Positions 1 through 15,528 of a stretch of DNA of 64,000 nucleotides are shown one piece after another; the stretch's first letter is position 1, and each line of letters begins with the position of its first letter. The notes under the pieces are model-generated. The model did no database searches and was not told the DNA's origin. It saw only the letters and a list, made by a program, of their open reading frames with translations. Where the stretch lies: contig JAQMWT010000167.1 in assembly GCA_029834535.1 (NCBI GenBank), forward strand, positions 1 through 64,000, in the 5' to 3' direction. Both the position numbers and the translations under genes were made by a program. The stretch comes from Chrysophaeum taylorii (Eukaryota; Sar; Pelagophyceae; Pelagomonadales; Pelagomonadaceae).

Positions 1-193
1 TATAAGACCTAACCTAGCTCGCGCGAGGAATGCCCACCTCCCGACGGCGAGGGACAGCACCGGGAATGCCGCCCATATCTTCACGCGCAAGGCAAGAGTA
101 CTTTCCCTGCCATAAGACCAGCGCACCGGTAACAGCGCGCAGTCAGACGGCTGACGGCAATTGTCGTTCTGACGAAAAAGAATAGCCAGCAAA

Positions 194-2360
194 GTGAGTT
201 TTGTGAGCGTCCGGATCAAATCTATTATCCGGGCCAAAGCGCGGTCATGGCAGAGAGGCAAGACCAGAACGACCGCAGTGGTTTTCGGGACGCACAGGAG
301 CGTCTGCAACGATCAGTGCAGGGACTCGTTGCGTCTATTGGAAGAACACGCTTCAGTACGCCCTTTCAAACGGCCGGAAGCCGAGGAAAGTGGCATCGGA
401 AGAGAGGCAAGATCATCTGATAGCCTCGACAGCCCCCCAAGCGTGGTCATCCTTCCGGATCCACGCGCCGGCGAAGGGGGAGCTACGGTTGCGCCAGACG
501 CAACTTCAAGACCGGGTGAGCCGACGTTCCCGTACGCACGACCCTACGAACGTGCGATGAATGCTACGGAGTCATCTCGAGCGGAACCCGGACCGTTTAC
601 GGCGATGCGTGGACCAGAGGAGAGTGCACCTCCTAGGCCACCATCTGCGAATACGAGAGCGACAGATTTTCGCGTGGGGATGCGACCCGAGGTTCTGCAG
701 ACCATCGCCGAACGATTCGAGATGTACCAGTCGCAGATCGAGCAAAGTCATACGTGAACTTGAGAACAACCCGCCGCGACGCAACAACAACAACGCTCAG
801 AAGTGGAGCGGCAGCGGATTGACAACGATCGACTTCGATGAATGGTGGAGGAATCCAGCGGGCGCATGCTCGAGAGGCACGGCCAACCTCTCGAATGCTA
901 CGCGTGTTACGCGACGACGATGATGACGCTGTATCGGCACTGACCGACGATCAGCCACCGCGAAGTCGACGGAGCCTACCCCGCACCATCATACTGACCC
1001 CGGTTCGGCGCGTCCTCGTGACGAAGAAGAGATACTTCATGTCAAGAAGGAGCTGTGTGGTATGACACAGTATCACATTTTTCGAATCTCACGGGGCAAA
1101 TTACAAGGACCGTGATGAGGTGGACGCGTGGTGGATGCAATTGCGGCGTATGATGGAAGGCAAGATTGATAAACCTTCAATAGCGATGAATGTGATTGGA
1201 GGCGAGTATCAATCACACCCTATGGAAGCTTATCGCAAATGGGAAGTGAACGGCCGCAGATGTGGAAAAATACAAGGAGGACCATCACACTGAAAGAGTT
1301 GCGCAGCATGATGAGGACTGTCTGGATGCGATGCAAGAGGCGACGAAGCTTCCTTGTCCCATCGGGCTACGGTTGAGGAGCTTGAACGTGAATGGTTCCA
1401 ATTTACGGCAGGGAATTTGTCATTGATAAGATATTGCGCGATGGGTGCAGAAATTCGGCCAGTGGAGAGCAATGTCAGGTCGTGATACTGATCCGGCTGC
1501 GTTCCGTTCGCACTTCATTGCTGGGCTCAATTCTGAGCGCTTTGCGGACGAGCGTCGAACTTTGCTCTTGAAGGCTCAGGCCTCACCGGCATATGAAAGC
1601 ATCTTCCACTACTCTCACCCTCAACGATGTCATTCAATTGACCATCCAGATTTTCCAAGATTCTGGAAGCCAAACCCTACTGCAACATCGAAGAGGCGAT
1701 TAAGAAGGAGAAGGGGAAAGGAGCGCGCACACGGATGAGGAGAGAGCAGCAGCAGCAGAGGCAGCAGTTGCAGCCAGTCCCAACGGGTGGTTATGTTACG
1801 ACTCGGGAGTTGGAACCTGGCTACCACAGGGGATAGATAACCATACGCGTCAAGCAATTACGACGTGTGCCTCAGTTGCGGCCGGCATGGTAGTTTTAAC
1901 CACGACAACGGTGTTGTGTCCTGTGCCGGACACGAGGAAGAGGCGTGCTGCTCAGACGTTGACGAATGCGGGTTTTCCAGCAACGCCAGAGGGACAGGAG
2001 CAATACCGACGGACGCTTTTAGCTGCAGCAGGACAGGCTTCAGTGACTCAGCTAGCGCCGCGCGTTGTGCAACAGCCGCAGGTGGTGGTGTCTACACAGC
2101 AGCACAGGTGCCAGGTGCAGGTCAACAGCAGTTTGGTTGCAGGCACTCAACAGCCGGTGGTCCGAAGGGCCCTCAGGCAGCGGACGCTCCAGACCTTCGG
2201 TTGGCTACACCGCCCGTGCGGTGCGCTGGTGAGGATCGGGCGGCTGGAGGGGTGGGCGGTTGATGACTACGGCTCTCAACACGATGAACTTGATTCGTCA
2301 GGCACAGCAGACGGCTCCCGCCGGGTAGAGGGCAACACAGTTTCAGAGAGCGAACCCTAG
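194..2360 (+). pseudogene. gag-like remnant of the gypsy element
   Basis: Several short overlapping frames without a continuous ORF. The 1445-1738 frame contains a stretch (FRSHFIAGL, then LLLKAQASP) that resembles the end of a retroelement capsid. At 1868-1910 the frame reads CLSCGRHGSF, which looks like the start of a nucleocapsid zinc knuckle (C-x2-C-G-R-x-G), but the remaining ligands are not in place. The 1887-2360 segment is rich in Gln, Thr and Val with no recognisable domain. The gag assignment rests on position in the element and these weak similarities; the capsid fold was not verified. Confidence 0.4.
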
Positions 2361-2397
2361 CCAGCGCAATGATGGTGTCGCCGCTCAGTGGCTTGAA

Positions 2398-3992
2398 GTG
2401 CTTGGCGAAGATCAGGATGACACTAAGCGAGCGGACTACTGCACTGTGCAGTATTCTGAGCTCATGGAGGGCAACGTGTATGACGATGACGAGGTTGGGG
2501 CGATGATGATAGCTATCTCTGCAGAAGGGCTATTCCCTGGTGACCCCATGGAACCTCCTTCCTTTTTGGTCATCACTGAAGATGCATGGGTGGAGGAGCA
2601 GGAGCAAAGTACCGAAGTGACTGGAGTTGCATCTAGATTCTCTCGGAAGACGAAGATAATCGTGGCGAACGGGGTATACGATTGTTCGTGTGGGACAAGA
2701 TACCTTGGTTGCCATGGATATAGTGCCACCGAGGGACGACTGGGCCGAGCGTTATGCCGCTCACCCTTCCATCTCTTCGGATTTCGAGAGTTTCTGCCCT
2801 CAGACTGCGTTGAATACCACTCAGGATCCCGACCATCGTGAAAATAAAGCCGTAAGGTACGATGGCACGAGATCCGCCTCTTTGACGTATGTGCCTGTGG
2901 CTATCTCTTCGCTAGATGGTTCGAAATATTCCATCATCGCTGCCGGTTGGATGGCATGGATGATTCCCCCTACATCGATCACCGCTTGTATCGCAAACTT
3001 GATCGTGACGGCAAAATCATCTATCGTCAGCCATCCCTCCCTAACGATTCGTACTTAATGGGTCAGGAGGTTCGGGAGCTGCTATTCGAGAATGGGTCAT
3101 TCTCCGGATCTCCTTGGTGCCGACGACATCCATGCTGCTCATGTTCTGTTCTTCGTGGTCAAACGAATGGGCAGTTACTATAGGAGCACGAGAATTACGA
3201 CTCTTGGTACGATTTTGGATTATGCGACAGAGAGAGCAGTATTTTTCGGCGTTCTGAAGTGACCATTGGAGTTCTCAGAATCGGACTTCCGCCTCGCCAC
3301 AAGACCAGCATGAATTGTGTCCTTTACAAGATGCATTCGATGCGACTCCGCAGGTAGTGCAGATGTTCCGACAGCTAAGCTTGCTGTGCAATACGGGAAT
3401 ATCCAAACTTGGACGCCAGTGGTAAACCGTGGAGTTATGACAGTCTATTGCGGTCTATTCGTATCAGAGCGAATCACCATCACATTCCTCCGGTGAAAAT
3501 GCCCTGCAGACGAGGAAGATATCATCCCTCATTTCGCGTACGTGACGAGTACTCGATTTCTTCTTCCAAGCCAACCGTACTTCTTGGAGATGGAGTGCGA
3601 TGTGCCGCTGGAAAAGGGTCACGTATTCCGACCTTATCGGTCACTCCTCACCAAGATCTCCGCCTGTACCTGGTTCCTATTCATCGTATTGCGCTGATGA
3701 GCCCAACGAAGTTCATGTGGCTGTGGAGCACATTGGTGACGAACCCATTGGTATCGACCCCGAAGTCCCGGTGGTCGAAGGCGAGATCATGCCGCATGAA
3801 GGATGTGTCAACATGCAGCTAGAAGCCACTGATGACGTGTGTCATGCCACTCTTACGGCTGCTGTTGACGACGATGAAGTCGAGGAGGATGTCTTGAGTG
3901 ACAGACCTCCTCCTCAGCCACCTCCAGATGAAGAAGTGAAAAAAACACCCGAAATGGAGATGGAGGCGACTGCTAAGGAGCTGCTCATCTAA
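2398..3992 (+). pseudogene. Unassigned retroelement coding remnant between gag and methyltransferase block
   Basis: Successive frames (2398-2841, 2690-3058, 2947-3183, 3409-3822, 3600-3992) look coding but switch repeatedly. The last is acidic (DDDEVEEDVL) and ends in a Pro-rich segment before a stop at 3990-3992. An aspartic protease would be expected somewhere here in a gypsy element, but I could not find a convincing D-S/T-G-A motif. The downstream methyltransferase block starts within about 40 bp of the stop, so this was probably one continuous polyprotein before decay. Confidence 0.35.
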
Positions 3993-4007
3993 GCACGCCT
4001 CCTTGGT

Positions 4008-4900
4008 TTGGATACCCATCACCTACACACCTTTGTCGTCGTCTACTTTGCTGGCGCTGGAGGATCAACGTTGGGTATCCGGCGATGCAATGAGCTATAT
4101 GGCAGTTCATTTCGCATTGTCCTGGCTTTGGATGCTTGTCCTCAAGCCCGAGCCACCTTTGAGCTCAATTTTCCGAAGATTCCCTATGTTTTGCATGAGT
4201 TGGGGAAAATCTCATCGTCGTACATACGACTTGGTGTTGTCGTATTTACACTCAGATTTTTGGAAGCATTCTTATTTTCACGCCAGTCCGCCGTGTATCT
4301 ATGGATCGACTGCCAATTTGCACTACAGGGACGCACGCAAGGGCGCTACTATTACTTCTTGGGTCCTGCGTCATTTCCGCAACGCACCTTATGTGATTGG
4401 ACGATGGACGCTCGAGCAGGAACCATCAGTGATCCCTTTGTGCATCACCAATTTTATGTGCCGCGTATTGTTGATTTTTATAGTATCACACCAGAGTTGC
4501 TGTGCTCGCGCACGCGCCTACTTGCTTGCAATGTTCGCTTGAAACTGCCGTTATTGTCGCGTGTACCACCGAGTTTACGGGACCGTTCTGGGCCAGCGTT
4601 GGGATTTACAGGTGGTCACCCGCTCATTATAGTGAACAGTTTCGCATCTACGCGCCCGGCTATCGGCCCTGCCTTCACGGTGACGCGCAATAAGCTACTA
4701 TGACCTAGGACTCATTTCTCGAACACCCGTCCACTCACGTTGCAGATGCACCAGGAAATAATGACCGTTCCTGCTACGTGGCAAGGGGTGCGACAGTTTC
4801 AGAGACAGCAGCTATGAAGATGCTTGGCAGTATGGTGCCACCCGCGACTATGACGCGGATTGCGCTAGCAGTGCACAATTCGTTTGACCCTTCACTTCGA
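4008..4900 (+). pseudogene. C5-cytosine DNA methyltransferase-like domain inside the retrotransposon (frame-broken)
   Basis: Methyltransferase motifs occur in the canonical order of the DCM/DNMT family across two alternating frames. Motif I is FAGAGGSTLGI (about 4042-4074), the SAM-binding loop. It is followed by ALDACPQARATFELNFP, the usual motif II-III context. Motif IV is HASPPC, with the would-be catalytic Cys codon at 4294-4296, followed by GSTAN. A motif VI-like WTLEQEP lies at about 4405-4425. A motif VIII-like TRLLACN lies near 4513. A motif X-like MLGSMVPPATM lies near 4820. The span of about 290 codons fits a catalytic domain. At least two frame changes make this copy inactive. Being sandwiched between gag-like sequence and RT, it appears to be an accessory domain of the element and not a host gene. 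Confidence 0.72.
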
Positions 4901-5309
4901 AATTTGGGTAAGTTGCGGAATATTGCGACGACTACGCTAGCCCACCTGATCACCATATTCTACGGTTTTCACCTTTGCTGTAGAGTCGCGCATTCCAACG
5001 CTCGACCCTGCCACTCGAAGTGTTCATGGATTGCGCCCGATGAACTCTATTCTCCTGCGAGTCCTGCACCATCAGCTGCTGCCCCCACCACCCCGCCACC
5101 ACCTTCAGTTACATCGCCAGGGACGGCTTCATCTTTTGCAGGGGGCACCGTCGCCACTGCTGTTATGCAGAGCAACCAAGTTGATAACCAGCTGAAGAAG
5201 AAGGCACCGCGAAAGAGCGACCAGCGTATTTCAATACGTACGACGTTCCGTGGGCGGACGCGCCTCACGACGAACATGGTCAACCTTTACCGGTGATGGC
5301 TCCTCATTT

Positions 5310-7333
5310 AGCGGATCAGGAGAGCATGCAGGTCATTCCTCCGACCCGACCGTCGCAGGTCGAAGAGGTGATGACTGAATTGGGCATTGCAGAGCATCCT
5401 GCTTTAGATGATGACGAGAAGCTGATGATGAAGCATTTAATCTCGTATTCGTGGGCATTTTCGATGATGTGATGAGACCTGTTGATTCACCTGAAGTGAC
5501 GCTCCGGTTCAAAGAAGAGAACCCGACTCCCGTCAAACTCTCGCCATATCGGTTGTCGAAAGAAAAGATTGAATGTTTGCGGATGCAGATTGAAGCGTGG
5601 ACCCGAGACGGAGTTATTCGTCCCGCGAATTCTCCATGGGGGTTCCCTATTTTGATGTTGCCTAAGAAAGGTGCTGAGCCTGGCACTTCCAATGCTTACA
5701 GAGCAGCTGTCGACCTACGGCGCCTCAATGCATTGCTCAAGGATGATAGGGCCGAGTGTGAGCATGGCTGACGCGTTGATTGTTTCTCATCGACAAGTTT
5801 TGTCGTTCCAGTTTGGATATTCGTTGGGGCTATCACAATTTACGATTGTCGCTAGATGCACAAGATGTGGTCACCTTCACTAGTCCTCTGGGAGCGTACA
5901 GCTACATGCGTCTACCTTTGGGAGTCAAACCAGCCGGAAGTTTGTTTTGCAAGCAGTTGAACACTGACTTGTCGCAATGGCTATATCGTGATCTCGTGGC
6001 ATATATCGACGATATTCTCGCCGGTCACGCAGATACAAAGAATCACTTGCAGTGCCTTGTGCAAGTTATTCCCCATCTCGCCTTGAAGGGGTACAGCGCC
6101 AAGATCAAGAAGATTCATTTTATGCAAGAAGTCATTGAGTTTTTGGGTCATTTATCTACCCCGAACGGACTTCTTCCATCACCAAGGTCTTTACAAGCCA
6201 TCAGACACATGCCAATTCCTGGCACTTTGTCGGATGCTGACCCTAAGAAGCAAGTGCGACCTTTCCTTGGAATGGGGGGCTTTTGCCGGCGTTATGTAAG
6301 GAATTTTGCGAAAGTTGCAGAGCCATTAAGACAACTGACGTTGCCGGACGTAAAATTCAAGTGGGCGAAAGAGTGTCAGGAAGCTTGGGATGCCATCATC
6401 GAGGCTATTGTCACTTCGAAGGGCGTCTATCATCCTGATTATTCGTTACCTTTTTACATTCGAACTGGTGCTTCCGCGCATGGGTTGGGTGCTTACCTAT
6501 TTCAAAAAGTACCAGTCGTTAACGACGATGGAAGAGAAAGAATCGAAGAGAGAGTTATCGAGTACTGGAGTCGAACCGTGCCTAAGTCGACGAGGAAGTA
6601 CGATCCTCGGCGCTTGGAACTCCTCGCAGTACTCTCTGCTCTCGAAAATTTCCGACTTTATATCGAAGGTCATCAGACGAAGTTAGAGACGGATCATCGT
6701 AATTTAACGTTTCTGCGGGATTCGAATCATACGTCTGGACAGTTAGCACGATGGGCTATGCGGCTTGCTGCGTTCGACCGGGAGCTCGGATACAAGCCTG
6801 GAAGCTCCCCTGGCATGCGTATTCCGGATTGTCTGTCGCGCAGCCCTATCGACAAATTGATCGAGAAAGATGAAGACGGGGAACCGATCGATGAAGTTTT
6901 TTTGATTTTCCAAGAAATCCCCACCGATGTCCCTGGCACAGCTTGCTTCACCTTCTCTTCGGTGACGATGCCTATGCTGACGGACAGCGGACCCACCGCA
7001 GCTATGGTAGCAGTTAGTACGCGACAGAACGTACAACCGCCTCAATTCTCGTACGAGTCTGAGCCAGTTGACTCCGTCGAACGTCTCCCTTTTGCGGATC
7101 AAGCGGAGGATGAGATCACTCTCGGTGAGATAGCGAAAGAACAAGCTGAGGATGAAACATGCAAGCGCATCAGACGAAAGCTCGACTCTGAACAGAAAGA
7201 TCAAGACGAGCAGTCATCCGTACCATATGAGGTAGATGACAACGTGTTGTATAAGGTCGATGATTCAGCTTCTCAACGTCTTATTGCAAATCTTAGAACG
7301 GTATTGGTGGCCAAACGTCTCATCATCCGTTAA
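5310..7333 (+). pseudogene. Ty3/gypsy reverse transcriptase and RNase H
   Basis: The RT N-terminal segment (PVKLSPYRLS, then PANSPWGFPILMLPKK) is read at 5451-5771. A frame change near 5770 leads into the long 5780-7333 frame, with LDIRWGYHNLRL, the palm motif AYIDDILAGH containing the catalytic YIDD, and the thumb/connection. RNase H follows: RTGASAHGLGAYLFQ, then RRLELLAVLSALENFRLYI and TDHRNLTFL. In RNase H the usual first acidic residue (TDAS in relatives) reads TGAS here, so the active site is damaged as well as the frame. N-terminal coding traces (ELGIAEHPALDDDEK) extend back to about 5330. Confidence 0.88.
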
Positions 7334-8229
7334 TGAGTTCGTCAATGCCTGCATTATTTGCCAGAAGATTCGATCCACCATGCCTAGACGCCATGGCTTG
7401 CTCTGTCAACCGAATCGCGTCGGAGACTGCTATGTCCTAGGTATGGATTTGATTGGACCTCTGCGAGGCGCTGACCTGTACACGTACATACTCGCAATGT
7501 ACGATGCAGCATCACATTTCTTGAAATTAGCTCTGATCAACACAAAACATGACTATTCGATTTTGAACGCGTTTGTGGACAAGATTTTACTTGAGGGATG
7601 TCTCCCACGGTGCATAGTCACGGATAATGGGAAAAAATGAGTTCGCGAACAGGTTGTTTCGCACGTTTGTTCGTCAATTCAACATACGTTATAGTACTAC
7701 CCTTCCGTATCACCCTCAGAGTAATCATACTGAGCGTGTCAATCGATTCATCAAAGCCTTCTTGCGAGCTGCGATCGATGAACAGCGTCAGCCAGATTGG
7801 TCGAATTTCCTCCCATATGTGTCATTCATGTACAATAGGATGTACATTCCGGGAACGAAGATTTCACCTTTCATGATGCGTACTGGCAAGCAACCCCTGT
7901 TACCACCCGATTACAATCTTTTGAGTGAACAGCGTGATCTACCGCAATCACGTCATCAGATTTTGGTGGACTTTAAGAACAAGTTTGAATTTTATAGTCG
8001 ACTCGTTACACGAGCTCACCAGAAAGCACAGGAGAGTCAAAAACTCAACTATGATGCCCACCAAATTGACATCCAGTTTCCCCAGGTGATTATGTTCTGC
8101 GTTTCGTGCCTAAGACACGCCACAAGCTACGGCCCATTTGGCGCGGACCTTACATGGTTACTAGAAAGATCTCTCCCGTCGTTTATGAAACTCAAGACGT
8201 CAACGACGATGATGCTGAATCGGTTGTAG
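7260..8229 (+). pseudogene. Retroviral-type integrase of the gypsy element
   Basis: A partial HHCC zinc-binding region is visible (RYWWPNVSSSVNEFV, then ACIICQKI with the Cys pair). It is followed by the DDE core: first Asp in GMDLIGPLRG (near 7443), second in IVTDNG (near 7620), and the Glu in SNHTERVNRFIK (near 7730). The frame breaks at about 7630, just after the second Asp, and the start overlaps the RT-RNase H frame out of phase. HPQSNHTERVNR differs slightly from the usual HPQSNGQxERxN of Metaviridae integrases. The core was clearly functional in the ancestor and is broken here. Confidence 0.85.
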
Positions 8230-8716
8230 TATCTGTACAACAGATTGTGCCTTTGAAAGTGCCAACCATCGACACTTCTTCAGCCCCTCTGCATTTACCC
8301 TCGGACCGCGACCGGTTCAAATATGGTAAGTTCGTGATTTTCAGGGTGAGAGGACGATCCAACGCGTGGAAGAAGCGTATCTATGTTGCCGAAGTCTACG
8401 AAGAATATGACCACGACAATGATACAGCTGCGCTTCACTACTATACTTTGGGACCGCGCGATGATCCTCGCGTCTTTCATCCTACTAAGCCTCTGGCTGA
8501 ACGACGCTTAAGACCAGAATACAAAGATGCGGACGGAGGTAGCTTCACACGTTTACGACCAAACATGGAGGGCTGTGAACCCTGTGTGACTGATTTTCGC
8601 CCGGATGAAATCGATGTCCTCGTCACTAACTTCGGTCTCCGCAGCAACAAAGTTCCTGCTGATGTAGCTGAACGAGCTTATCGTACCATTCGTGAGCGTG
8701 ACCTTCGTCACCCTTG
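8106..8716 (+). pseudogene. Integrase C-terminal GPY/F module and chromo-like tail
   Basis: The frame opens with KLRPIWRGPYMVTRK, the GPY/F module typical of gypsy integrase C-termini. About 60 residues later comes YGKFVIFRVRGRSNAWKKR followed by YVAEVYEEYDHDND and ALHYY, which resembles a chromodomain-like beta barrel with a D-rich turn. The remaining roughly 80 residues (to the stop at 8714-8716) are of unknown function. A chromo-type tail would class the element among chromoviruses and could direct integration to modified chromatin; that reading is inference. The frame overlaps the preceding integrase frame, showing a frameshift near 8110-8150. Confidence 0.65.
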
Positions 8717-8738
8717 AAGTCGAGGACGACTTCATCTC

Positions 8739-9290
8739 AAGTAGGGGGCTCCTGTGGCAGCAACGCCCATTTCCCCCACTTGCCTGCCTGCCACCTGACT
8801 TACCCTGGTTGTTGCCCTGGTACTGACCTTGCAATTATGGGGGGAGGCGTCATCTTGACACCCTCACCTGCGCTTCCACTGAACCCAATGCACCAGGTAT
8901 TTGTGTTGCTTTCTTGCTGTCTTCTTGATATTACCCTCATTTGATTGTCCGATTTCGTGATGGCGTGAGGTATTACGCTGAGATCGGGCGTGTGGTGGTT
9001 TCGCCCGCGGTTCGGGTTGGGAGAAAGGGTTGTCGAGGCCCCCGGTCCGGCCAGGAGGGGCGGGTATCTGAGAAAACCACTACACTGGGTCGGATAAGAA
9101 AACGAGACTAGCCCGCGCCGCAACGACGGGTCCTACAACGCGTGGGCTTTTTCCTTTTTTTGCGTGAGGGGACGAAAGGATGCCGACTTCACTATGGGGA
9201 CTAGTTCCATCGCGACGATCTCGCGGCGTGGCGGCACATACTGCTTGAGTACAAATGAACATATCTCAGCGATCCGTTGAGTATGTCTTT
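8739..9290 (+). repeat. Polypurine tract and 3' LTR (right edge approximate)
   Basis: The tract AAGTAGGGGGCTCC (8739-8752) directly precedes TGTGGCAGCAACG, a typical polypurine tract followed by an LTR starting with TG at 8753. It lies 22 bases after the last stop codon of the pol remnant. The region to about 9290 has no coding potential. Without the partner LTR in the window the right boundary cannot be fixed. Confidence 0.55.
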
Positions 9291-9392: not shown

Positions 9393-10050
9393 CCTAACTA
9401 CTAATCGACAGATGTTTGTCTGTCTGTTTGTCTGTCTGTCTGTTTGTCCCTCGATTTAGGGTAAGGATCAGTTAGGCGCGAGAGTAAGGATCAGGTAGGC
9501 GCGAGAGCCAGACAGTGATCCTCCAAACCGTCTACGGCGACCTCGCAGACTATTTCCACGACCCGCGGCGGCTCTTTCAGCGCGCCATTCTCACGCCCCG
9601 TCGAAACGATGTTGTCGATGCTGACAACGCGCGCATGACCGCGGCCTTTTTTCCCCGGAGACGAGGCGTCGGAGTTCTTTTCGGCTGACTAGGCTGGGTC
9701 GGAAGACGACGCCTCGCTCTTTACAGTCGAGTTTTCAACTCCCTGACAACCAACGGCATGCTGACTTTGATCGCGAGCTTAATGTCTTCGCAACCTCGAC
9801 CCGTCGCACGGCCACTGCAACGGTACCAGATACATGATCGATCGTGTCGTTGTCACCGAGGCTCCTCCAACCTGTATCCCTTAAGGCCCGCCGACGCCAA
9901 ACGATCAACAAGAGCCAGGGCCAGACGCCCCGCGAGGTCGGCGTCCTCTTGCCCAAGCCCGTCTTCTGCCACGTCCAGCTCTACGTGGCTCTCTGTCGAT
10001 CGGCAACCCCGAGGATATGCTCTTCTGAGTCGACGACTCCACCCTACCCC
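9393..10050 (+). pseudogene. Pif1/Helitron-type helicase fragment, copy 1
   Basis: Three frames together show the C-terminal half of a Pif1-like helicase as found in Helitron RepHel proteins. DLADYFHDPRRLFQRAIL and TPRRNDVVDADNARM (about 9538-9637) match the RAILTPxNxxVxxxN region. CNGTRYMIDRVVVTEA (about 9816-9863) matches the L/C-CNGTR motif. TINKSQGQTPREVGVLL then HVQLYVALCR (about 9900-9999) match the diagnostic INKSQGQT and QLYVALSR motifs. The copy is interrupted by frameshifts and a stop near 9745. Bases 9393-9943 are duplicated at 10427-10972. A short TGTCTGTCTGTTTG tract lies at 9415-9447. Helitron origin is favoured over a host PIF1 gene because of repetition and decay. Confidence 0.75.
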
Positions 10051-10096
10051 ACACGTGCTGCGCAATACCGATAAGCCCCCTCCCGGCGTCTACACG

Positions 10097-10426
10097 CGCA
10101 CTGTAGGTGAACTTACTGGGACCAGGTGAACTTACTGGGGTTGGAGATTGGGACTAGGTGAACTGAGTGACCAGGTGAAACTGGGACCAGGTGAACATAC
10201 TGGGGTTTTTAGAGTAAAGGGTTTTTAGAGTAAACTCAAAGGTTGGCGGCGCGTGCGGATCAAAGCAGCTTAGATTGGCGGAGGCGAGAGCGACGAGCTC
10301 AAGGGAGTTGGTGTGAGCTAGGTGAACTTACTGACCAGGTGAACTATGAAACTTACTGGGACCAGGTGAACTTACTGGGATTAGAGATTGGGACTAGGTG
10401 AACTTACTGGCCTGCACTTGTCTTAT
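10097..10426 (+). repeat. Minisatellite of AGGTGAACTTACTGGGACC-type units
   Basis: Imperfect tandem units built on GGTGAACTTACTGG (with variants GGTGAACATACTGG and GGTGAAACTGGGACC) occur at 10106-10205 and again at 10321-10411. Between them, 10206-10280 holds a TTTTTAGAGTAAA direct repeat and one copy of the dispersed CAAAGCAGCTTAGATTGGCG element. Each array ends in the same CCTGCACTTGTC followed by CCTAAC. Confidence 0.85.
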
Positions 10427-10972
10427 CCTAACTACTAATCGACAGATGTTTGTCTGTTTGTTTGTCTGTCTGTTTGTCCCTAGATTTAGGGTAAGGATCA
10501 GGTAGGCGCGAGAGTAAGGATCACGTAGGCGCGAGAGCCAGACAGTGATCCTCCAAGCCGTCTACGGCGACCTCGCAGACTATTTCCACGACCCGCGGCG
10601 GCTCTTTCAGCGCGCCATTCTCACGCCCCGTCGAAACGATGTTGTCGATGCTGACAACGCGCGCATGACCGCGGCCTTTTTTTTCCCGGAGACGAGGCGT
10701 CGGAGTTCTTTTCGGCTGACTAGGCTGGGTCGGAAGACGACGCCTCGCTCTTTACAGTAGAGTTTTCAACTCCCTGACAACCAACGGCATGCTGACTTTG
10801 ATCGCGAGCTTAATGTCTTCGCAACCTCGACCCGTCGCACGGCCACTGCAACGGTACCAGATACATGATCGATCGTGTCGTTGTCACCGAGGCTCCTCCA
10901 ACCTGTATCTTAAGGCCCGCCGACGCCAAACGATCAACAAGAGCCAGGGCCAGACGCCCCGCGAGGTCGGCG
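10427..10972 (+). pseudogene. Pif1/Helitron-type helicase fragment, copy 2 (truncated)
   Basis: A near-identical second copy of 9393-9943, offset by about 1,034 bp, again with the TGTTTGTCTG tract, the DLADYFHDPRRLFQRAIL segment, the CNGTR region and TINKSQGQTPREVG. Here the coding similarity stops abruptly at 10972, where the sequence switches into the GGTGAACTTACTG array, so the QLYVAL part present in copy 1 is missing. Small differences (an extra T in the T-run near 10680, loss of CC near 10907) show that the copies have begun to diverge. Confidence 0.8.
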
Positions 10973-11133: not shown

Positions 11134-14100
11134 ATGTGGCAAAGATTGTGCACACGAAATCTTGCCAATCTTTCCGAATCCTGCGTCTTTATGGAGGCCC
11201 ATCGGCTGCGGCTGGCTATGAGATTGCTGCGGGGCGACCCGACGGCCTCGGAGGCGCGCGAAACGGCGAGCGCCATCGTGCACGAAGTGTTGGGCATAAA
11301 ACCCCGCGACGCCGACGAACATCTCGTGCTTCGATGGCTGCACAGGCGATGGCAGGTCTGTGAAAGGCAAGGCGAGGGACGCCCGCTGGCGCGAGGCGAG
11401 GGGGGCTGCCTGGCGAGAGTGGGCGATAGAGTTCGCGTCAAGTGGTTCTGCGCGGATGAGCCGGCCGAGCCAGTGGGCACCGTGCTTGCCGTAAGGAACG
11501 ACATCGCTGTCGTCCGAGTCACGAGCGTGCTGGCGACTGAGGAACACTGGCTGCCAATGGCATCGCTGCGGTTGACTGCGGACGATGAGTCCCATTTGCT
11601 GGCAATGCGACACCAAGCGCTCCAAGCGATCGTTACGGCCCTCGCGCGTTTCGAGTGGATCGTGGTCGACCGCTGCGTGCGGATTATTCGTGGCGAACGC
11701 GCTGTGCTGTACTTCGAGCGTGGGCCGGAAGGCATGCGAGTCACGGCGCGCGTGCCTCGCCTCCGTTTTTCGCTCAGAGCGTTAGTCGCTGGCGATGTCG
11801 ACGTGACCAACGGGCGGCTTTTTGGCCAACCAGAACTTCCATGGACGTACACCCGCAAACTTCAAATCAAGACAGTACCCGTGGCAACCAGCGTTCGATG
11901 TTCTCACATCGTGTCTAAAATGTCTAAAATGTCTCCTTCTCTTGCGTGTGTGCACCTGAGTGAGTCCGCTTTGTGACCATCACACTTGTGCCATCTCGCT
12001 CGAGCCTAGGTCTTGGCAGAGTTCAAACGCCATGGGGACGAACTGAGCGTCGTCATTTGCTGGGAAACTGAACGCTGGGAGCTCCGCGTGCAACCGGGGG
12101 TTAGCTTAGATTGGCTCGACGCTCCACGACGAGCCACGCTCTGCGATGGCCTGGAGTTTTCAGCGCGCGACGGGACGCCAGTGCAAGCGAGAGGAAAACC
12201 AGACGAAGATATGATCCTGTACCGGTCCACTCGATGTGTTGTGCGCCGCGTTGGTAGCTCGCTACAAGTCGGTCCGTTCACATTAGGACACGACGAATGG
12301 GTCAAGCTCGGGCTTCGAGTGCCACTACAGTGGCTCTCGCAGCACCATCAGACGTGTCTCGCACGACGATTCGCGGAACTCAGTCTGCGGACCGAGAGCG
12401 ACGTCCTGCGTTTCCAGGCCAGGCAGCAACTCCTCGGCACACCACACCTCGCGGTGGCTCCTGAGCCGACAGTCAAGAAGCTAGAGGTGGTACCTCCACT
12501 CGAGTTCGAGAGAGAAGAAATTATCCGACAAAATGAATGCAGCGCGAGCCACAGACGATTTCTCCTGTCAAACAAAGAGATCGCGGCACTTCTCGAGTCA
12601 AAATCAGCACGCTCGATGACCCATGGCATGGAAACCGCGAGAGCCAAGTTTGTGGCAGCATACGCAGCCCGCGGCGTTGTCCGTCGTCGGGCAGAGGAGT
12701 CCGAAACTCGCCGATGCAAGAACGTTCACGAGGCGAAGGCTGTGGCTAAGCTCCTCACCCGAGTGCAGCTTGGAAATGAACCGCAGGCACTGCGTGATGC
12801 CCAAGAAATCCGGAAGTTAGAGCGCGGTGTCCGCGAAGCGATGCAAAGAGCCGACGCGGCACACGCTCGGCTCCAGAAACTCATGCTCGATATCGATACG
12901 ATTGAGCTGGAGCCGCCGGACCCCTCGTGGCGAGCGATGGCCGACGCCGTTCTTGCCGGATCTACCGTTGAAGTTGACGAGACTATCACCGAAGAGCAAC
13001 GGTTGCGCCGAGTCCAAGCCGAGCGTTGGTTGAGTTGGGCTGGATCGGAATCCGACCGGGTCGCAGCGATTGACGAGGAAGCGCGCACCGACGCGACCTC
13101 CCTTCGCGCTGAGCTCGCCAGTCTCGCAAGGCTTGTACTTTGGAAGAGATCTCGGAAGCCTTTGAATTTCGCGAACCCGCCACTTCTCGTGACAGACGGC
13201 GAGGTTTCCGTGTACGATGTCGGAGAGCGCCTTGAGGTCCGTGGAAAAACAACAATTGAGAGTCACCCAGGTGGGGACGATTGGCTTCTCCAGGAACCGC
13301 TGAAGCGGATTGAACTCGGACTTCGCCTCCTGCAGGGATCCTTGGTCGCTGAGGGTCGATTTGCCCGCGCGCGATGTGCGACGTATAACGCGCAGCTGTT
13401 CGACGAGGGCGACGAGCTCGTGCTGACCAATGGCAAGGATCGCGTGAAGGTCCCCAAAGAGCACTACGTCTTGCTCTGCCATCCGCGCGAGCGGCGCCGC
13501 GCTCTTAATGACGCGGTCGCACGAGCAGCCAAAGAAGATCCCAGTGTTTGGGGCTTCACAAGCGACACCTCACTTGAGCGCTCAAGAGGTGAACTGTCTC
13601 GTTTCGAACATGATTGGAACAAGCCTTCGGCGTCTCTAGTCGAGCACACCCAGAGCCTCCATGAAAGTATGGTCCAGGGTGTCGTTGAAGAGCACGACGC
13701 TGAGAATGTCACCGAGGCAACTAGGGCACGCGGACGCGACGCTTTCGCACGCAAGATCCAACGGGGGATAGCGCTTGCAGAAAGCAGGCCGCGCTTCTTA
13801 GGCGCTCTATTGGACCTACCCGGGATTAGAAGCAAATCCGACGCACCAGTAGCTGCTGACGCTTTCCGACGTCGGCGTCGGCGCGAGGCTGCTTGCCGCA
13901 ACAGCTACAACCGCGCAGTTGCCGAGCGCAGCTACGAGGCGCTGGAGTCTGCCGCACGAAGTCATACGCATTCAACGCTCACCGTCCTCGAAGAAACAAA
14001 ATTATTCGAACTTCATTCGCGGGCAGCGTTGGCTCGAGGCAAATCAAGGGACGCAGTCAAGTCGGCAGCGAGGCTCCCGCACAGTAACCGGAATCGGTTG

Positions 14101-15528
14101 TTGCAAGCTCGATGTCACGTCGCGGCGTGCGACCTCAGGGCCGCGCGGGCTGCGCTCGCCGCAATAATTCCAGGTGATGAAGCCCTCGACCCCGTGGTTG
14201 CCAAGTGGATATCACTTGTCAAAGTCAGGAGCTTGGGCCGCGAGTCATCTTTTTTCGAGGACGAAGAATCACTGAGCCGCCTGAGTGCAATCTCTCAGAC
14301 TTTCGCAGACTACGTCGAACCCACGCTAACAAAGCAAAGACGGAAAGAGACACCCCAACAGCAATTGGAGGAGCAACCCGAGGAAGATGAACAGGAGGAC
14401 GATCTCGAGAGTGTGTACGAGTTTTTGACGGATGACGAAGAAGAGGCGTCGGGAGATGTGATCTGCGAACTCGAGACGAACCAGCAAACGATCTCACTGA
14501 CCGCTTCGGCACTCAGGCATCATGGTTTTGCGAAGGCGACGCAACTCGCGGTCGACGGCCACGAGCAATCAGACGCTTTACTGAACACGCTGCGGCGCAC
14601 GGCTCGTTCTGTCGCACACACCCGTCGTGCCGAGCTCCAAAGGCGCGACGCCGAGCTCCAGAGTATCTTGATGCGTGACGACGTAAAAGAAATTGGTGTG
14701 AGTGTCGTCGCCACAACGGCCAACGTGTCGACGTTCGCGCGGACGAAAACCTACGCCGTTGTGCTCGTTGAAGAGTGCGAGCGCAGGCCGAGACCGTCGC
14801 AGGACACCATGGACAAGGCACGGGCAATATTTGATCTTGTCGTCTGGAAAAGCGAGGCCACGATCGAAGCCGTTTTGGACGCGCTTCGATTCGACAAGGA
14901 GTTCGCCGCGTTCCATGCCTGGCTTGAGGCGAACCGCGTCGAGTTCTTTCGCGGTCACGAGATTAACGTCCCCACGCTTGCACACCTCTGGGATGAATTC
15001 CAGAACGAGAGACTCCCTGTTGTGACGTGGGAAGTCGGCACCACGAGGCAAACCAGAAGGTTTCCGCTTGGATGGCGCGAGTCTTTTGGCGTGCCGGCGC
15101 CTATGGAGCTCGGCGAGTGGTCGCCCAACTACGAGGGCTTGTTGCCTCATTGGATGCTTATTACGCAGCTGTGGTCGACGAGTTTCGCGGGTACCGAAAT
15201 TCTCAAACAATCTCTTGGTGAAGCGCGAGTTCCTGTCGGCGTCCTTCTTTCCGTGCTTGAGAAAGAAGAGTCTGCAGAGTTGGACCTCCCCCTACAGCCA
15301 CGCTCGATTGCGGGGAAAGCTGAGAAAAAAAAAATTGAGGGCACGGTGTGTCTCAAGGTCTCGCGGCCTCAAGCCTGGGCCGCCCTTAGGGCCAGGAACC
15401 AACCAGATCCCCAAGCCGACCTCCTCCGAGCTATTCTCGATGACAATCTGAATGATGATGACGACAATCTCAGCAACCTTTCGTCGTCCACGGTCCGCTT
15501 CCGAGAGGATGTTCGAACAACGACGTAG
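11134..15528 (+). CDS. Very large protein of unknown family, two exons
   Basis: Exon 1 (11134-11959) and exon 2 (12020-15528) join in frame through a 60-bp intron with a GTGAGT donor and TTGGCAG acceptor, giving about 1,440 residues. Exon 2 lacks its own ATG at its start, which supports the join. I do not recognise the family. There are repeated short beta-rich segments (GDRVRVKWF near residue 105, GDELSVVICWETERWEL at the start of exon 2, GDELVLTNGKDRVKV mid-protein) that could be SH3-like barrels. Helical, charge-rich stretches follow, then an acidic patch (EEQPEEDEQEDDLESVYEF) and a mostly folded-looking C-terminal 250 residues ending in an acidic Asn/Asp tail. It lies directly right of the helicase minisatellite and converges on the P-loop gene at 15863-17506. 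Confidence 0.6.

Follow-up and report, generated by a model that had tools for sequence, protein, structure and literature searches.

Retrotransposons that carry cytosine DNA methyltransferases (DNMTs) have been described as LINE and DIRS elements in Symbiodinium and as a Gypsy element in Klebsormidium, the DIRS-borne enzyme methylating CG and self-methylation of the cDNA being proposed in the accessible text of that work (PMC5890265), by which the algal and dinoflagellate parallels named in the first-pass annotation of the DNA studied here are borne out. In the same text, Copia elements of Symbiodinium are without a DNMT, whereas a Ty1/copia family with a methyltransferase (MTase) is described below. 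Another text, citing the 2018 paper, speaks of LTR Copia and DIRS elements with DNMT3 members, where the 2018 paper itself says Gypsy and not Copia (accessible passages of PMC12344493 and PMC5890265); because of this mention a copia claim is not entirely new in print. DAM- and DCM-encoding Ty3/Gypsy and DIRS elements are attributed to stramenopiles and red algae, among others, with no detail in the part of the article at hand (PMC6338049). The accessible parts of PMC3145265, PMC9861306 and PMC12730594 name no LTR element with a cytosine MTase, and titles and abstract openings, subscription papers and preprints aside, gave no cytosine-MTase gypsy or copia element in a red-plastid alga.

The window, the whole stretch of 64,000 nucleotides from Chrysophaeum taylorii that was analysed, begins with a decayed Ty3/gypsy element assigned to subfamily A (1..9084, forward strand, as are all features of the element), whose pieces 1-2154, 2264-3496, 3498-7286, 7287-8366 and 8671-9084 are collinear with positions 1126-9960 of the relative L029 at 91-97% identity (blastn). 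Because the contig starts within the element, the 5' LTR is missing from this copy, which has a 3' LTR only (8753..9084, ends judged by eye), with a G-rich polypurine tract ahead of it at about 8740-8750; in L029, direct LTRs lie at 718-1001 and 9633-9913 (91% over 291 columns). Tblastn with the unbroken L029 frame places a gag-like region at 999..2195, inside which the CCHC-like zinc knuckle CLSCGRHG is found (1868-1891), the Retrotrans_gag profile PF03732 being weak in L029 (14.6 bits, under cut-off). Downstream of the MTase domain follow the reverse transcriptase (RT; 5454..6412 by tblastn, RVT_1 46.8 bits in the frame 5780-7333), RNase H (6437..6775; PF17917, 86.8 bits) and a frame-broken integrase made up of an H2C2 zinc-binding part, an rve core and a C-terminal SH3-like part (7088..8366; Pfam and tblastn), of which H2C2 scores above cut-off and the rve and C-terminal matches beneath theirs. 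The succession RVT_1, RT_RNaseH, Integrase_H2C2 and rve in both the window and L029, with the protease recognized by eye and rve under cut-off, is the Ty3/gypsy order. The chromo tail that the first-pass annotation had attributed to the element was not recovered: no Pfam Chromo match up to E 1 exists in window positions 8070-8717 or L029 8178-9641, and chromovirus identity is not supported by this integrase C-terminus.

Retropepsins normally read D-S/T-G. The retropepsin-like protease region of the window copy (approximate bounds 2870..3280, mapped from L029 residues 613-748 and assigned by eye, with no Pfam match) has LDGM instead (2947-2958). In the part that corresponds to window positions 2930-2970, DGMAD is read in the open frames of L029 and L033, from subfamilies A and B, and in L067 of family C, a protease variant that looks like a trait of the MTase-bearing gypsy clade. 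Adjoining the element, at 9417-10972, a stretch of about 1.03 kb is tandemly duplicated, its pieces being 97-100% identical and short repeats of the AGGTGAACTTACTGG type separating the copies, and an open frame of 1172 aa at 12010-15528 has no Pfam match up to E 0.1.

The C5-cytosine DNA methyltransferase domain itself, broken by frameshifts, occupies 4003..4882, as delimited by motifs, PF00145 and other copies. Motif I FAGAGGSTLGI (4047-4079, frame 3), LNFPKIP (within 4164-4202, frame 3), motif IV HASPPCIYGSTAN (4279-4317, frame 1), motif VI WTLEQEP (4405-4425, frame 1), motif VIII RTRLLACN (4509-4532, frame 3) and motif X MLGSMVPPATM (4820-4852, frame 2) are all present in the canonical order read by the first-pass annotation and spread over three frames, and it is the ordered motifs I, IV (PC), VI (E), VIII (R) and X, with EQ or EH replacing the usual EN in motif VI, that place the domain among the C5 MTases. 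Presumably, these motifs differ from those of Dnmt3. The window copy, frame-broken as had been observed, reaches 16.3 bits with PF00145 (E 0.007, frame 3993-4703), below the cut-off of 22, which is passed by the isolated unbroken domains of L029 (36.4 bits, E 5e-9), L033 (38.6 bits, E 1e-9) and L067 (27.1 bits, E 3.5e-6). NCBIfam dcm also matches these three at 18.8-22.7 bits (E 4e-4, 7e-5 and 1e-3, respectively), scores far under its curated cut-off of 100.65, and PHROG DNA-methyltransferase families match as well, phrog_116 with E 1.2e-9 for L029 and 8e-8 for L067.

Throughout the host assembly (70.8 Mb, 697 contigs), the block recurs as a unit. Of 165 first-look candidates from a DNA search, 40 were scored, the window copy among them, and every one of these matches spans no fewer than 904 of 908 bases with an identity of at least 94%; a protein search with an unbroken domain gives 136 matches, fragments counted, and an unbroken gypsy MTase block is present in 27 of 66 loci inspected (other families among the 66), 18 of the blocks being distinct in DNA. 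Two relatives retain the unbroken gag-MTase-RT frame that had been proposed as a genome-wide check, L029 with a single open frame of 1812 aa and L033 with one of 2129 aa, both reading gag, zinc knuckle, protease-like region, MTase and RT, a single protein thus matching PF00145 as well as RVT_1. The initial claim of an MTase between gag and RT of a Ty3/gypsy element holds, with the amendment that gag and MTase are themselves separated by a protease-like region. Three groups carry the MTase at the same place: subfamily A, to which the window copy belongs, subfamily B, 85% identical to A in the MTase, and family C, represented by L067, with 42% identity in the MTase and 59-61% in RT. Of 997 first-look candidates for a family-C query, 135 were scored, giving 135 matches in frames as long as 3067 aa, and in L067, the one C locus read, MTase and RT are in different frames.

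Among the matches listed, at least 43 of the 69 gypsy-class RT rows have an MTase match no more than 3 kb upstream, and four of the remaining 26 are an MTase-deleted variant discussed below. Inheritance of the enzyme together with the element is the simplest reading, and the copies support a C5 MTase domain that is an integral part of the Pol polyprotein. That a host MTase gene was instead hit by element insertions, or that chance or an assembly junction brought the parts together, is scarcely conceivable: the block sits at one place in dozens of copies spread over different contigs and in divergent families, shares its open frame with gag and RT, and the two PF00145 matches outside the Ty1/copia family are other genes. 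The copies thereby refute the host gene or junction, the host gene with an inserted element being the refuting outcome that the first-pass annotation had itself named, and since the block is conserved across copies, at nearly full length in 40 of 40, with its catalytic residues kept in 18 of 18 unbroken blocks, a chance origin of the motifs, which had been judged unlikely from the window alone, is excluded. Near-identical match coordinates on contigs C25 and C521 and on C10 and C297 suggest haplotype pairs kept in parts of the assembly, which would inflate copy counts. Eight of the RVT_1 matches listed fall on contig C696, a clustering that an organelle genome containing group II introns would be expected to show.

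Catalytic residues were compared in the 18 copies that are distinct in DNA, a set selected for having the block unbroken. In motif I (FxGxGG), the phenylalanine and three glycines are invariant, as are PPC of motif IV, the motif-VI glutamate and the RxR of motif VIII, with G and VP of motif X equally kept in 18 of 18; family C keeps the invariant residues of motifs I, IV, VI and VIII. C5 MTases usually have ENV in motif VI. Here it reads LEQEP in 17 copies and LEHEP in one, and since the asparagine is thus replaced by glutamine or histidine, enzyme activity is not certain. This variant motif VI is what might point to an MTase fold that is enzymatically inactive and retained for a structural or nucleic-acid-binding role within the polyprotein, as might the one outside relative found, P0001, which has ASPSC for ASPPC, though its cysteine stays. 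With the catalytic Cys, motif-I Gly, motif-VI Glu and motif-VIII Arg invariant in all 18 copies, and the catalytic residues kept in family C at 42% identity, a pattern expected for catalysis, we regard such an inactive fold as distinctly unlikely.

Selection was gauged by comparing codons between A and B. The MTase (291 codons) has a dN/dS of 0.055, RT one of 0.038 and the protease one of 0.11, whereas the linkers and the zinc-knuckle region reach 0.23-0.42, values that are rough because synonymous sites are near saturation (dS 1.5-2.2 in most segments) and dS is not computable for gag; amino-acid identities, which show the same ranking, are 85% (MTase), 87% (RT), 77% (protease) and 48% (gag). 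By these figures, the MTase is about as constrained as RT between the two subfamilies. The pooled nonsynonymous/synonymous ratio is 0.156 among 14 A copies, selected because their MTase is unbroken, and 0.678 among 4 B copies with very few differences, constraint not being visible at that scale. Separately, the MTase-RT linker has a dS of 0.44 between L029 and L033, against at least 1.5 on both flanks, which may mark recombination between the A and B subfamilies.

With C5 MTase homology, one open frame in A and B, kept catalytic residues, purifying selection and the same placement in family C demonstrated at the level of sequence, we favour, at a probability of roughly 55%, a C5 MTase that sits between protease and RT in the Gag-Pol of a Ty3/gypsy clade, is inherited by descent and selected, and would methylate the element's own DNA. 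Self-methylation is the leading candidate mechanism and is likely. The MTase would be produced as part of Gag-Pol, packaged into the particle and act on the element's own DNA, either cDNA that has yet to integrate or the newly inserted copy, and the 5-methylcytosine so added could be maintained by the Dnmt5-like enzyme of the host. The likeliest benefits would be that new copies resemble host chromatin, or that activity is restrained enough for the host lineage to survive.

As for traces of such methylation, C-to-T differences in 190 pairs of 20 subfamily-A copies occur at 0.0182 in CG, 0.0135 in CA, 0.0162 in CC and 0.0216 in CT, so there is no CpG excess among these copies; the CpG rate is 0.0121 within the MTase block versus 0.0144 elsewhere, and CpG observed/expected, at 1.03-1.07 in gypsy stretches versus 1.31 in the rest of the window, is lower, not depleted. 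Heavy CpG methylation of the copies gets no support from this test, which is blind to rare, recent or other-context methylation. The absent CpG deamination signature would also suit an enzyme that methylates RNA and not DNA, either the element RNA or the tRNA primer, and thereby aids packaging, priming or RNA stability. Dnmt2-type enzymes act on RNA, and the departure of motif VI from ENV would fit as well. RNA methylation is suggested for LINE-borne MTases in the accessible text of PMC5890265. An RNA target is nevertheless unlikely, if to be taken seriously, as by eye the motifs are closest to those of phage DNA MTases (FAG-GGS-LG, QLNFP), albeit with no firm placement in the tree, and the position beside RT fits a cDNA substrate.

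A subfamily-B variant without positions 4088-5195 of L033 has lost the whole MTase and parts of both linkers. Its breakpoints are identical in two loci, L046, which stays open for 1126 aa across the deletion, and L047, which is frame-broken, and the exact 20-mer of the junction occurs at four places (C209, C248, C335 and C394) that may be fewer insertions, given the haplotig-like contig pairs of the assembly. L046 and L047 differ at 33 of about 2086 positions, and because they do not group exclusively apart from full-length copies, the deletion has spread or recombined; MTase-bearing and MTase-deleted B copies are about 98-99.5% alike in the compared stretch. Since the variant is found at four places, the MTase seems not required, at least in cis, for amplification. 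The missing CpG C-to-T excess and this variant speak against an indispensable self-methylation step, and the first-pass suggestion of an element that methylates its own DNA copies found no confirmation in either. Because the variant exists at several places, the MTase is not taken for a catalytic step of transposition, and the advantage of self-methylation would be a long-term one.

Both the MTase-deleted variant at four places and long-term purifying selection alongside frequent copy decay would be compatible with an enzyme that mainly benefits the host by silencing the family in trans, lineages with tamed elements being those that survive, a possibility also raised in the accessible text of PMC5890265. 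It overlaps with part of the preferred reading, and dN/dS does not separate host benefit from direct element benefit; a primarily host-serving enzyme is considered unlikely.

A single-sequence protein search with the gypsy MTase gave none at E ≤0.001 among 2158 candidates, and a PDB profile search no match up to E 10. The A/B/C profile, run against 5.8 billion proteins, yielded a single relative from 5707 candidates, P0001, a JGI metagenome protein of 322 aa on a contig of 2598 bases (E 1.7e-31, 34% identity). P0001 groups with the gypsy MTases at 100/100 on a long branch and has the LEQ motif VI in common with them; it differs in its ASPSC motif IV and is known from the 2598-base contig alone. 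It has no Pfam match, and residues 1-90 look like the linker ahead of the MTase by eye only, the best blastp hit (E 0.06) falling on a different stretch of the L029 frame. In viral contigs, two of 80 pattern-matching stretches are relatives, both ordinary phage MTases; these IMG/VR enzymes are 32-33% identical to the gypsy MTase over residues 11-104, and motifs I to X correspond in the alignment. Origin from the Dnmt2-like or Dnmt5-like gene of the host was considered and not adopted, with no confident similarity and a tree that long branches leave unresolved; the best host match, to the Dnmt2-like gene over 91 columns of motifs I-IV, has 30% identity and a probability of 1.1%.

The reading of a single MTase-carrying retrotransposon holds for the gypsy element and is too narrow for the genome, in which a Ty1/copia family carries an MTase too. 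In a PF00145 search of the assembly (123 scored of 474 candidates, gypsy MTases not among them, and multi-exon genes may be missed), 55 of 57 matches overlap Ty1/copia MTase matches, and a copia MTase query gives 152 matches (150 of 470 candidates scored). One 1952-aa frame, L035, has PF00145 (32.1 bits) downstream of a DGGAS protease motif, then rve (17.2 bits, below its cut-off of 32.6) and RVT_2 (133.2 bits), and it is RVT_2 downstream of the integrase that marks it as Ty1/copia; the copia copies read through RT are two, L035 and L036. PCQ and EN are found in all seven aligned copies and ENV in six, and with L035 as reference, five divergent copies give a dN/dS of 0.087-0.109 and the close copy L036 one of 0.21. 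L035 has about 460 extra residues (481-942) separating MTase motif VIII from the integrase, with no Pfam match and dN/dS of 0.11-0.13 versus three divergent copies and 0.49 versus L036.

A single-sequence protein search with the copia MTase gave none at E ≤0.01 among 2672 candidates, and a PDB profile search reached M.HhaI at E 0.03-0.06, which is suggestive only. Compared by hhalign, the gypsy and copia MTases share nothing over 9 columns, both profiles, at Neff 1.1 and 1.4, being shallow, and in the tree a clade uniting them is neither supported nor rejected (p-AU 0.33). Because no specific similarity is seen, as far as such shallow profiles and tree allow, the two enzymes were likely captured independently.

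Outside the copia family, PF00145 matches two genes among the 123 scored candidates, the Dnmt2-like L001 and the Dnmt5-like L002. In L002, PF00145 (65.4 bits) and SNF2 (37.1 bits) lie in the same 2086-aa frame, the SNF2 match covering profile positions 2-76 at C621:19899-20237; a RING match has 12 bits only, under cut-off, and the 300 residues directly ahead of SNF2 have no Pfam match. The predicted protein has the Dnmt5 architecture of MTase and SNF2 ATPase in one. Dnmt5 has been described as a maintenance-type enzyme. It is present in diatoms, pelagophytes and haptophytes, and its loss depletes methylation in Phaeodactylum, according to the accessible text of PMC9998398. Since the non-mobile MTases found are the Dnmt2-like and the maintenance-type Dnmt5-like one, the elements come into view as a de novo source, such that two LTR superfamilies would supply the de novo cytosine methylation of the genome, the elements writing 5-methylcytosine and host Dnmt5 copying the mark. 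We consider this quite improbable; if true, host methylation would be seeded by parasites.

The rubisco large subunit on contig C697 has its first eleven PDB matches at 539-611 bits, later ones shown being at most 421, and by the lineages to which we take the PDB rubisco chains to belong it is of the red type (form ID). If C697 is the host plastid, this rubisco indicates a red-lineage plastid and a host that is neither a charophyte nor a peridinin dinoflagellate.

Among described systems, KnitGypsy-Dnmt3 of the charophyte Klebsormidium nitens is alike in having a C5 MTase in a Ty3/gypsy Pol ORF with key residues conserved and purifying selection (Ka/Ks < 0.2), and differs in its Dnmt3-type MTase and DIRS-like repeat arrangement (PMC5890265, accessible text), L029 having direct LTRs. 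Unlike it, the element described here has SPPC and LEQEP motifs, one relative found (34%) and a host with red-type rubisco. A gypsy element with a cytosine MTase as such was hence already known, and of the first-pass expectation of something new or rare the host lineage and the MTase type stand as new. SymbioDIRS-Dnmt3 and SymbioLINE-Dnmt of Symbiodinium are likewise high-copy retroelements with C5 MTases, of the DIRS and LINE classes and in a dinoflagellate host (PMC5890265, accessible text). Phage and bacterial C5 MTases (dcm superfamily TIGR00675, phrog_116 and phrog_363) have the same motif order as the gypsy MTase, and are free-standing, with ENV in motif VI and a larger VI-VIII region, in contrast to its shorter VI-VIII stretch. 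What is new is the lineage of the host, the type of MTase, the use of such enzymes by two LTR superfamilies of the same genome and the variant that has lost the MTase. The known range of MTase-bearing retroelements would grow to include a red-plastid alga, an MTase type with one relative (34% identity) in a 5.8-billion-protein profile search, and a Ty1/copia family, two LTR superfamilies of a single genome being involved. The near-identical MTase-bearing and MTase-deleted B copies would make what a retroelement gains from a DNA MTase testable within a single genome.
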